A stretch of 64,000 bases of DNA from Candidatus Deferrimicrobiaceae bacterium (GCA_036504035.1 DASXVV010000009.1:496001-560000), one strand, 5' to 3'; positions 32,329 through 35,630 are shown, numbered from the stretch's first letter. The notes: generated by a model not told the origin, from the sequence alone. A program made the numbers and translations.

Positions 32329-32360
32329 AAAGGGGAAGCCGAATGATCGGCTTCCCCTTT
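32329..32360. terminator. Intrinsic terminator following the tRNA-Lys-linked element
   Basis: A 14-bp stem AAAGGGGAAGCCGA pairs with TCGGCTTCCCCTTT around a 4-base loop. It lies 10 bases past the end of the tRNA-3'-end copy of the element on the minus strand. It closely resembles the hairpin just after the intact tRNA-Lys, with matched changes in the stem. Confidence 0.85.
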
Positions 32361-32369
32361 GGGAAAGAT

Positions 32370-32511
32370 TGGTGGGCCATGTAGGAGTCGGCCACTACGC
32401 CTCCGACATCCTGTCTCCGGCTGCGTAGCCTCCCCTCGACCGCCTGACGCCCGCATCCATGCGGGCTCATCCTCGCTATCCGCTCGGCGGCGGACTCGCT
32501 TCGACTCCTGC
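32370..32511 (-). repeat. 142-bp tRNA-3'-end-linked structured element, copy 1 (tRNA-Lys)
   Basis: A 142-bp sequence about 87% identical, without gaps, to 35489-35630. On the minus strand it lies downstream of tRNA-Lys. Its last 21 bases (32390 down to 32370) are an exact copy of tRNA-Lys nucleotides C56-A76, including CCA. Predicted pairings: positions 3-10 with 122-129 (element ends); 46-51 with 58-63 around an invariant ATGGAT loop; GGCT-ACGC-AGCC at 82-93; and GACA-GGA-TGTC at 97-107. Positions 66-114 are identical in both copies. No transposase or integrase is encoded. It could be a minimal non-autonomous mobile element or a structured RNA with a tRNA-like 3' end. I do not recognise it as a named family. 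Confidence 0.85.
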
Positions 32512-32530
32512 ATTGGGCCCATGTAACGAC

Positions 32531-32561
32531 AAACGGGAAGCCGAAAATCGGCTTCCCGTTT
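32531..32561. terminator. Intrinsic terminator after tRNA-Lys
   Basis: A 14-bp stem AAACGGGAAGCCGA / TCGGCTTCCCGTTT with a 3-base loop starts 10 bases after the CCA end of tRNA-Lys on the minus strand. The following T-run is short (TTTGT). Its sequence is a near duplicate of the hairpin at 32329-32360. Confidence 0.85.
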
Positions 32562-32570
32562 GGGAAAATT

Positions 32571-32646
32571 TGGTGGGCCATGTAGGAGTCGAACCTACAA
32601 CCTCCGGATTAAGAGTCCGCTGCTCTGCCAGTTGAGCTAATGGCCC
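32571..32646 (-). tRNA. tRNA-Lys (anticodon CTT)
   Basis: A complete 76-nt cloverleaf with encoded CCA. The acceptor stem is GGGCCAT / ATGGCCC, the D arm GCTC...GAGC, the anticodon loop CTCTTAA gives CTT (lysine AAG), and the T arm is GTAGG-TTCGACT-CCTAC. The outermost anticodon-stem pair (27-43) is a G-G mismatch. It is the last of three tRNAs in a minus-strand cluster. Its final 21 bases are duplicated 201 bp downstream inside the repeat element. Confidence 0.96.
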
Positions 32647-32670
32647 ACGTTATGTAAAGAACAAAAAAAT

Positions 32671-32746
32671 TGGTGCGCCTGGGAGGACTCGAACCTCCGC
32701 ACCCGGCTTCGGAGGCCGGTACTCTATCCACCTGAGCTACAGGCGC
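32671..32746 (-). tRNA. tRNA-Arg (anticodon CCG)
   Basis: A complete tRNA with encoded CCA. The acceptor stem is GCGCCTG / CAGGCGC, the anticodon loop CTCCGAA gives CCG (arginine CGG), and the T arm is GGAGG-TTCGAGT-CCTCC. It is the middle gene of the His-Arg-Lys cluster and has no element copy behind it. Confidence 0.96.
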
Positions 32747-32814
32747 CCTCGCGAAACAAAACCCGCGGTTATCCGGATTCTCCGGAAGGTGCCGGGCTTG
32801 CCGGTGTCAAAGAA

Positions 32815-32891
32815 TGGGGAGAGTGATGGGGCTTGAACCCACGGCCACCAGGGCCACAACCTGGTGCTCTGCCAACTGAGCTACACTCTCC
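32815..32891 (-). tRNA. tRNA-His (anticodon GTG)
   Basis: A complete 77-nt tRNA with the extra G(-1) opposite C73 that marks tRNA-His, and encoded CCA. The anticodon loop TTGTGGC gives GTG, and the anticodon stem is CCAGG / CCTGG. It is the first gene of the minus-strand tRNA cluster, 16 bases after the -10 box of a strong promoter. Confidence 0.96.
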
Positions 32892-32907
32892 GCAAAAGCG
32901 AAGGGAG

Positions 32908-32937
32908 AGTATACAAGCATCTTCGCGCGGACGTCAA
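32908..32937 (-). promoter_or_regulatory. Sigma-70 promoter of the His-Arg-Lys tRNA cluster
   Basis: On the minus strand TTGACG (32937-32932) and TATACT (32913-32908) are separated by 18 bases and lie directly upstream of tRNA-His. This is the best sigma-70-like match I saw in the window. Confidence 0.8.
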
Positions 32938-32982
32938 CCCGGAAATCTTTGAGGCCCCCGAAATAATCTTCCGGAAGCCGGA

Positions 32983-35283
32983 TCACGGCTTGAATCGGCG
33001 CAGCCGCAACGCGTTCGTGACGACCGTCACCGACGAGAGCCCCATCGCGGCGGCGGCCATGATCGGGTTGAGCCGGATGCCGAAGAAAGGGAACAGGGCG
33101 CCGGCCGCGACCGGGATGAGCAGGACGTTGTAGGCGAACGCCCAGAACAGGTTCTGCGCGATGTTGCGGATCGTGGCGCGGCTCAGTTTCATGGCGGCCG
33201 CGACGCCGGCCAGGTCGCCCCCCATCAGCACGATGTCGCCCGACTCGATCGCGATGTCGGTGCCGGTGCCGATCGCCATGCCGACATCGGCCTGCGCCAG
33301 CGCCGGCGCGTCGTTGATGCCGTCGCCCACCATCGCGACGACGTGCCCGTCCGCCTGGAACGCGCGCACCGCCTCGGCCTTCCCGTCGGGAAGAAGCCCC
33401 GCCCGCACCGTACCGATGCCCGCCTGTTTCGCGATCGACAGCGCGGTCCGGCGGTTGTCGCCGGTAAGCAGGACGACGTCGAGCCCCATCTTCTTGAGCG
33501 TCGCGATCGCCGCCGGGGCGCCGGGCTTGATCGGGTCGGCGATCGCCATCACCCCGGCCGCACGACTGTCGACGGCCACGAGCACGGCGGTGGCGCCCGT
33601 CTCCGCCAATTCCGCCGCATCGGCTAGCAGGCCGGAGGGATCGACGCCCCCCTGCTCGAGCCAGTCCGCCGTCCCGGCCAGCACAACCTGCCCCTCGACC
33701 GTCGCCCGGATGCCGCGCCCCGCCACGGATTCGAAATCCCCGGGCGTCGCGATCGCGATGCCGCGCGCCGCGGCGCCGCGGACGATAGCCGCAGCCAGCG
33801 GATGTTCCGAGCCGCTTTCGGCGGAGGCCGCAAGGCGGAGCAACTGCGCCTCCCCTGCCTCGCCCCGGAAAGTGCCCGCCGGGGGGCAACTGATCGTCGT
33901 GAGCGCGGGCTTACCCGAAGTCACCGTGCCCGTCTTGTCGAGCAGCACCGTATCGACCCGGTGCGCCGTCTCGAGCGCCGCGCCGTCCCGCACCAGGATC
34001 CCCAACTCGGCCCCCTTCCCCGTGGCCACCATGATCGACGTCGGTGTTGCGAGCCCCAGGGCGCAGGGACAGGCGATGATCAGCACCGCGATCATGTCGA
34101 GCAGCGCCCACATCAGGCGGGGCTCGGGGCCCAGGAGATACCAGGCGAGAAAGGTCGCGCCCGCGATGGCCAGCACGACGGGAACGAACCAGGATGCGAT
34201 CCGGTCGGCCAGCCGGCCGATGGGCGGCTTGCTCCCCTGTGCGGCCTGGACCATCGCGACGATGCGGGCGAGCACCGTGTCGCGCCCGACGCGGGTGGCC
34301 CGGATCACCAGGCGTCCGTTGAGGTTGATCGTCCCGCCGGTCACCGCGCCGCCTACCCGCTTGTCGACGGGAAGCGGCTCTCCCGTGAGCATCGACTCGT
34401 CCACCGCGCCCGATCCGTCGGTCACGTCGCCGTCAACCGGCACTTTTTCGCCGGGACGGACGACCAGCGTCTCCCCCGCGCGGACGCTCTCGAGCGGCAC
34501 GTCGTGCTCGACGCCGTCGCGCACGACGCGGGCGCTCTTCGGCACCAGGCCGACCAGCTTCCGCACCGCCTCGGACGTCCGTCCCTTGGCGCGTGCCTCG
34601 AACCAGCGCCCCAGCAGGATGAGCACGACGATCGTGGCCGAAGTATCGAAATAGACATGCCCCTCGGTCCCGGCCGGCACGACCGCCGCCGGGAAGAAGG
34701 TGACCACGGCGCTGTAGAGCCAGGCGACGCTCGTCCCCAGCGCCACCAGGGTGTTCATGTCGGTCGTGGCGTGGCGCGCGGCGGCCCACGCCCCCCGGTA
34801 GAAGCGGGCGCCGACCCAGAACTGGACCGGCGTCGCCAGCGCCAGCTGGAGCAGGTTGGCCGCGAAGGGGGACAACCGCATCGCCGCGTGCCCCGCGAAC
34901 ATTTCGAGATGGGAGAAAAGAAGCAGCGGGACGGCGAGCGCAGCGCCGGCCTTCAGCCGGAGAAGCAGCGCGCCTTCCTCCTCGGCCTGCATCCGCTCGA
35001 GCCGCACGACCGGGTCCTCGTCGGGAACCGGGAGGGGCACGGTGTAGCCCGCCTCCTCGACGGCCGCGCGGAACGCGGCGGGATCGGCGGTCCCCGGCGC
35101 GTAGTCGACCGAGGCCGATTTCGTCGCCAGGTTGACAGACGCCGAGACGACGCCCGGCACCTTGACGAGCGCCCGCTCGACCCGTGCGACGCACGAAGCA
35201 CACGACATCCCCTCAACGGCGAAGGTGTCCCGCGTCAAATCCTTCCTCGCCCTGGCGGGCATGCCCGGGACCGGGTCGACCAT
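32983..35283 (-). CDS. copA: Copper-translocating P1B-type ATPase
   Basis: A 766-residue copper exporter. One N-terminal heavy-metal-associated domain carries GMSCASC. Eight membrane helices include the P1B-1 motif [11 protein letters not shown] in helix 6 and conserved asparagine-tyrosine/methionine-serine motifs in helices 7-8 ([23 protein letters not shown]). The cytoplasmic domains hold TGEPLPV (actuator), DKTGTVTSG (phosphorylation site), the HP pair in SEHPL, and [10 protein letters not shown]. The motifs predict Cu(I) export from the cytoplasm. The ATG at 35283 is chosen because GAGGA lies 7 bases upstream. A TTG and an ATG further up lack ribosome sites. No copper regulator lies adjacent. 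Confidence 0.93.
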
Positions 35284-35349
35284 GCGACGGTTCCTCATGA
35301 ATATGCGATCCGACAATCCTTTTATGATGGCACAACGGGGCTAACACGG

Positions 35350-35378
35350 TTCGAATCGTCCGGTTAGTTTGCTATACT
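35350..35378 (+). promoter_or_regulatory. Probable promoter of tRNA-Arg(TCT)
   Basis: TATACT at 35373-35378 lies 11 bases before the tRNA. A weak -35 match (TTCGAA at 35350-35355) lies 17 bases upstream of it. The -10 box matches that of the tRNA-His promoter exactly. Confidence 0.55.
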
Positions 35379-35389
35379 TCCCCCGGCGT

Positions 35390-35466
35390 GCGCCTGTAGC
35401 TCAGGTGGATAGAGCATCTGCCTTCTAAGCAGATGGCCGCAGGTTCGAATCCTGCCAGGCGCACCA
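35390..35466 (+). tRNA. tRNA-Arg (anticodon TCT)
   Basis: A complete 77-nt tRNA with encoded CCA. The acceptor stem is GCGCCTG / CAGGCGC, the anticodon loop CTTCTAA gives TCT (arginine AGA), and the T arm is GCAGG-TTCGAAT-CCTGC. Its last 21 bases (C56-A76, 35446-35466) recur exactly at 35610-35630 as the tail of the second element copy. Confidence 0.97.
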
Positions 35467-35488
35467 TGACTCCCTTCACCAAGCCCAC

Positions 35489-35630
35489 TCAGGATTCGAA
35501 GCGAGACCGCCGCCGAGCGAATAGCGAGGACAAGCCGCCATGGATGGCGGCAGCAGGCGGTCGAGGGGAGGCTACGCAGCCGGAGACAGGATGTCGGAGG
35601 CGAAGTAGCCGAATCCTGCCAGGCGCACCA
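35489..35630 (+). repeat. 142-bp tRNA-3'-end-linked structured element, copy 2 (tRNA-Arg TCT)
   Basis: The second copy of the element at 32370-32511, of identical length with 19 differences. It starts 23 bases after tRNA-Arg(TCT) on the same strand and ends in that tRNA's C56-A76. Against copy 1, the pairs 49-60 and 50-59 of the ATGGAT-loop stem are flipped (C-G/G-C versus G-C/C-G). The end-pairing 7-125 changes from G-C to T-A. These are compensatory changes, which argues for selected base pairing. Unlike copy 1, no hairpin terminator separates it from the tRNA. Confidence 0.85.

Follow-up and report, generated by a model that had tools for sequence, protein, structure and literature searches.

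Two tRNA-linked copies of a structured element

The window, i.e., the whole 64,000-nucleotide stretch of DNA that was analysed, carries a tRNA-Lys(CTT) gene on the minus strand and a tRNA-Arg(TCT) gene on the plus strand, and each is directly followed, on its own strand, by one copy of a structured element (Table 1). In agreement with the original prediction, which had also linked both copies to tRNA genes, the minus copy (32370-32511) and the plus copy (35489-35630) were found to share 123 of 142 positions in a gap-free alignment. The runner-up placement of the plus copy inside the window reached 63 of 142, and a window scan with the covariance model R2 yielded these two copies in total. The recomputed alignment also reproduced the predicted differences: pairs 49-60 (CG/GC) and 50-59 (GC/CG) are inverted between the copies, pair 7-125 is GC in one and TA in the other, and positions 66-114 (49 nt) are invariant. 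Overlooked at that stage was that both ends of each copy repeat the 3′ end of the adjacent tRNA, in inverted form at the start and exactly at the close. The final 21 nt of both copies equal C56 to A76 of the respective tRNA, CCA included, and pair 7-125 differs because the two tRNAs differ. The statement that the element belongs to no named family stood in so far as the Rfam covariance models (RtT included) gave zero matches to the window copies even at E≤5; it did not stand with respect to the tRNA-linked repeats (TLRs) of Escherichia coli, a named but little-studied kind which the element matches.

Table 1. Coordinates of the two window copies, their parts and their host genes.
Feature	Position	Strand	Basis
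tRNA-Arg(TCT), host gene of plus copy	35390..35466	+	ARAGORN; Rfam tRNA
23-nt linker, tRNA-Arg to element; no terminator-like hairpin seen	35467..35489	+	sequence
Inverted arm CAGGATTCGAA, reverse complement of tRNA-Arg T-arm/3′ strand	35490..35500	+	arm comparison; family-wide permutation test
Four-hairpin core, plus copy	35501..35609	+	covariance models R1/R2, 106.7 bits; RNA fold z = -3.5
Hairpin P2 CCGAGCGAATAGCGAGG; tandem G-A mismatches, loop begins with G and finishes with A	35513..35529	+	
Hairpin P3, loop ATGGAT (GGA)	35534..35551	+	
Hairpin P5 GACAGGATGTC, loop CAGGATG = CsrB repeat sequence	35585..35595	+	motif comparison
Direct 21-nt copy of tRNA-Arg 3′ end, with CCA	35610..35630	+	sequence
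tRNA-Lys(CTT), host gene of minus copy	32571..32646	-	ARAGORN; Rfam tRNA
Terminator-like hairpin, tRNA-Lys to element	32531..32561	-	by eye; scan did not flag
Inverted arm, reverse complement of tRNA-Lys 3′ end with mismatches	32500..32520	-	
Core, minus copy	32391..32499	-	R2, 106.3 bits; RNA fold z = -3.8
Hairpin P3, loop ATGGAT; stem flipped versus plus copy	32449..32466	-	alignment
Hairpin P5 GACAGGATGTC	32405..32415	-	alignment, R2
Direct 21-nt copy of tRNA-Lys 3′ end	32370..32390	-	
Second terminator-like hairpin, 3′ of copied tRNA-Lys end, resembling the first	32330..32360	-	sequence

Covariation and folding of the core

The proposed structured element under pairing constraint was well supported by further copies, for which its own genome and related genomes were searched with a covariance model. 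Among 130 distinct copies (from Deltaproteobacteria and Spirochaetes, plus a few from elsewhere) each of the 29 pairs was changed on both sides, i.e., compensatory changes were observed throughout. In the alignment of these copies pairing holds for 89% of cells, with a covariation score of 0.583, versus 0.143 after shuffling and 0.04-0.07 (maximum 0.067) for slid partners; as the alignment was fitted to the covariance model, these values lean toward the model. An independent RNAalifold analysis of 11 copies agreed with the structure, as did the shuffling and sliding controls. Single-sequence RNA folds of both window copies were significant (z values in Table 1). In these predicted folds the two tRNA-derived arms base-pair together, and the 3′ end of the Lys copy resembles an acceptor stem with an ACCA tail. 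When the full tRNA-Arg plus element transcript was folded, the arms were predicted to compete with the T-arm of the tRNA itself. In two genomes hairpin P2 was found replaced genome-wide, by CTGAC-TTAAT-GTCAG or CCGCC-GGT-GGCGG, in L115-L121 (G193) and L122-L125 (G149); this genome-specific replacement in every copy of one genome is homogenisation within the genome.

The constraint may act on RNA, or the pairing of the arms may result from their templated copying. Pairing might also be selected in DNA, with single-stranded hairpins serving a recombinase or transposase in a REP- or attC-like manner and not as RNA. We regard this as very improbable. It would fit the scarcity of G-U pairs (66 of 3,168 standard pairs), the location of some copies at island edges, and the tandem G-A mismatches and G...A loops, which are stable in DNA too. 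However, tRNA acceptor stems of the same contigs, used as a control, were equally poor in G-U (18 one-sided (G-U) versus 451 double-sided changes), so that this rarity does not discriminate and was rejected as proof of DNA-level selection. Moreover, the RNA fold of the plus copy is more significant than its DNA fold (z -3.5 versus -1.9), and the orientation of the elements nearly always follows the tRNA (65 on the same strand versus 1 on the opposite strand among the matches listed).

Arms derived from the host tRNA

At the 5′ side of each element an inverted copy of the tRNA 3′ end was found, which measures 9-21 nt. For 100 elements the direct and inverted arms were scored against their own and all other tRNAs. 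The direct arm reached a median score of 19 of 22 against its own tRNA, compared to a mean of 5.9 against tRNAs for other amino acids; for the inverted arm the means were 12.0 and 6.5, respectively. Summed scores of 1,649 (direct) and 1,199 (inverted) were not attained in any of 2,000 permutations (maxima 745 and 746). In nearly all cases listed for these 100 elements a tRNA gene lacking CCA went along with a copy lacking CCA.

The duplicated stretch can exceed the tRNA, as in the Lys copy, where the direct repeat runs 28 nt beyond the tRNA end. An extension of at least 12 nt was seen in about 19-20 of 76 copies, a count in which tandem-only cases are not separated. L139 is flanked by a near-perfect direct repeat of ~39 nt (21 nt of tRNA and 18 nt of trailer), and the arrays L105, L117, L121 and L144 close with a partial unit that comprises tRNA end, trailer, inverted arm and the first 11-40 nt of the core.

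The stretch between tRNA and element was surveyed in 54 copies, with 31 short linkers (30 without a T-run) and 23 long ones (17 with a T-run). The T-runs of the long linkers would suit an RNA-processing or termination device, in which a spare tRNA 3′ end and a terminator insulate against read-through from strong tRNA promoters. So would the second terminator-like hairpin that often follows the copied end (window Lys copy, L109, L127), as well as the position of E. coli RrB between two terminators (PMC8144298). Against such a device stand the short linkers, nearly all of them without a T-run, and it leaves the covarying core and the conserved GGA loops unexplained; we consider it quite improbable.

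Distribution and spread

With the covariance model R1, 20 copies were detected in the own genome. Their hosts are tRNA-Arg, Lys, Ser (3-4 tandem units), Leu and Glu (4-5 tandem units) as well as tmRNA; a few copies lie behind tRNA fragments or remote from tRNA genes. In other genomes the hosts also include tRNAs for Asn, Pro, Gln, Ala, Sec, Gly, Met, Val, Thr and Tyr. Elements linked to tmRNA (ssrA) were observed at L015, L190, L210 and L256, with arms fitting the tmRNA 3′ end. Within the same family 17 of 20 genomes carried the element; across the phylum 14 of 198 did (7 of these outside the own family), and among Spirochaetes genomes 6 of 100, while 199 Pseudomonadota genomes gave no match (covariance model, E≤0.001). 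Four unrelated genomes gave zero matches, and all 11 genomes chosen for holding elements matched. Many tRNAs of element-bearing genomes carry no element. A pattern scan of named species genomes returned at least 120 stretches, mostly from Spirochaetes and Deltaproteobacteria. Among the matches listed, 65 of 133 have a same-strand tRNA or tmRNA within 400 bp upstream and 1 has one on the opposite strand; many of those without an upstream tRNA look like chance pattern matches in genes. The 133 matches include 8 viral contigs. A viral origin was rejected, with just one of these 8 (L294) resembling a genuine element. L294, an IMG/VR contig, carries a tRNA-Leu-type element and is possibly a prophage or island edge.

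Comparison of orthologous sites revealed filled and empty states. At the Arg(ccg)-Lys(ctt) spacer the own genome (G000) has no element, and G010 and G021 have one; at the Lys(ctt) site G000 and G021 carry an element and G010 does not. In G193, near-identical cores adjoin tRNAs for Arg, Gln, Pro, Glu and Ser, and the arms of each fit the neighbouring tRNA; likewise one core occurs by different tRNAs with fitted arms in G149 (Leu, Ala) and in the own genome (Arg, Lys). Vertical inheritance at one tRNA was also observed (Ser, Leu and Glu within the genus). Purely vertical descent and purely tRNA-specific lineages were both rejected, as the core tree mixes these patterns, on few columns and with many unresolved forks.

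A selfish, non-autonomous mobile element without host function, which uses tRNA 3′ ends as landing sites and copies its arms from the target upon insertion, is a possible though not the favoured explanation of this distribution. Its patchiness would be expected of a mobile element more than of an essential regulator. The filled and empty spacers, the repeat flanking L139, the five differently fitted tRNAs of G193 and the solo copies remote from tRNAs point in the same direction. On the other hand, neither an encoded enzyme nor a trans-acting partner was identified, a bare structural element would not need sequence-conserved GGA loops, and the inheritance at one tRNA within the genus speaks for vertical transmission too. 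Genes for transposase, integrase or reverse transcriptase were not found adjacent to the window copies, and a DNA similarity search of phages and plasmids with the window element gave zero matches. An extended version, in which TLRs form a cross-phylum class of mobile elements that have no terminal inverted repeats of their own and copy them from the target tRNA at every insertion, appears unlikely at present. Its speculative route would begin with snap-back copying of the tRNA 3′ end, change over to the core at the T-loop and later come back to this loop, perhaps by way of a tRNA-primed cDNA.

Several individual loci were recorded in addition. In G211:C1, tRNA-Pro with its element (L109, ~1912 kb) lies ~49 kb from a second, near-identical element that accompanies a tRNA-Pro 3′ fragment (L110, ~1864 kb), and an integrase gene (1864702-1865214) is located near the fragment. 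The pair is a probable island with an attachment region including the repeat, and it suggests that islands using tRNA ends as attachment sites can carry elements along. In L003 (1140-1640; G000:C9, 246 kb) two tandem elements follow a tRNA-Leu 3′ fragment in place of a complete tRNA gene, and a phage-type integrase remnant lies ~200 bp past the tRNA-Leu(cag) element of L005 (G000:C14:113898-114134). Solo cores without a tRNA (L014, L016, L018, L140, L149, L150, L151, L153, L154, L155, L161, L284) are preceded by a hairpin of GGAGCGAGAACCC, ~20 nt and GGGTTCGAGCTCC, which mimics the tRNA arm and is tandemly repeated in L284. They look like a second, tRNA-independent class.

GGA loops and CsrA

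The stems of P3 and P5 vary freely, and the GGA of their loops is conserved. It was present in 74 of 91 P3 loops and 61 of 83 P5 loops, counted only in matches of the covariance model because the GGA-containing search pattern would bias the frequency. P5 loops are mostly CAGGATG, CAGGAAG or CAGGACG, i.e., CAGGA(U/A/C)G; in some genomes GGA is missing from P5 (e.g., GTGAT in G193). CAGGA(U/A/C)G is the repeated CsrA site of CsrB (PMC7652899, PMC5027483), and CsrA SELEX yielded RUACARGGAUGU within short hairpins. Judged by sequence, the P3 and P5 loops look like putative CsrA docking sites. A csrA gene was found in the own genome (C9:429879-430034) and in 9 of 10 element-bearing genomes tested; as csrA is widespread in these phyla, its presence proves little. 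In E. coli, the rrn-operon TLRs RrA, RrB and RrF undergo processing and are bound by Hfq and, via GGA motifs, by CsrA, and RrB binds CsrA in vitro (Stenum et al., PMC8144298). The 19 TLRs of E. coli tRNA operons have a predicted CsrA-binder score <0.01, and deletion of RrA/B/F had modest effects only (PMC8144298).

The best overall explanation, with a probability of roughly 0.5, is that the elements are TLRs, made as read-through RNAs with predicted CsrA binding and spread duplicatively. Transcription starting at the tRNA promoter would read through into the element, whose RNA would fold with the tRNA-derived arms paired, giving a 3′ end that resembles a tRNA acceptor end and might be trimmed by tRNA-processing enzymes. 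The GGA hairpins P3 and P5 could then bind and titrate CsrA, as RrA/B/F may in E. coli, which would tie CsrA activity to the rate of tRNA/rRNA synthesis. That CsrA titration is their main role is put forward tentatively. New copies would arise by a duplicative event in which the tRNA 3′ end, either alone or together with its trailer, is copied to both sides of the core, and tandem amplification would follow. CsrA binding and a selfish mode of spread can hold simultaneously.

Comparison with known systems

The first description of TLRs dates from 1978; no function had been assigned to them, and their conservation was traced within Enterobacteriales only (PMC8144298). In E. coli, 10 loci hold 22 copies in total (Egan and Landy 1978, Rudd 1999, as cited in PMC8144298). 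These lie directly 3′ of tRNA or rRNA genes, singly or in tandem, and their 3′-terminal 18-19 bp match the 3′ terminus of the preceding gene exactly. Both window copies lie immediately 3′ of a same-strand tRNA and end with an exact copy of 21 nt; therefore, we filed them, with high confidence, as TLR-kind elements. In contrast to the E. coli TLRs, the elements described here occur in Deltaproteobacteria and Spirochaetes, have tmRNA hosts and solo copies without tRNA, and possess an explicit inverted copy, a 29-pair core and conserved GGA loops. R2 weakly matched the E. coli rrnB TLR (E 0.0028) and three tyrT repeats (E 0.0033-0.077), all in the right places, in a search of 2.6 kb; scaled to the whole genome these matches would be non-significant. 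Common descent with the E. coli TLRs appears likely.

RrA/RrB/RrF share with the elements the copied 3′ end, GGA-loop hairpins (CAGGACG) and a T-loop-like GGATTTGAAC segment. Unlike the elements, they are linked to 5S rRNA, shorter and devoid of P2 and P3, and binding of CsrA and Hfq was demonstrated for them, whereas CsrA binding is a prediction for our elements. The E. coli tyrT repeats/RttR have a similar inverted arm (GGGGAAGGAT), direct copy (AATCCTTCCCCCACCACCA), GAGCG..AGCGAG hairpin and three tandem units; they differ by loops of GCA or GAA instead of GGA, and their model score is weak (9-15 bits). The CsrB/CsrC/RsmZ family has the same CAGGA(U/A/C)G hairpin loops, but offers many sites where the elements offer two per unit (more in tandem arrays). 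Unlike that family, the elements have tRNA-derived ends and no own promoter was seen.

A family of >100 covarying copies in Deltaproteobacteria and Spirochaetes provides a usable structure model and demonstrates that arms track the host tRNA. It suggests CsrA as a partner that can be tested, and its recent insertions offer material for working out the copying mechanism. The TLR kind was already known from E. coli and the Enterobacteriales, and a strongly covarying family of it was found here in distant phyla.
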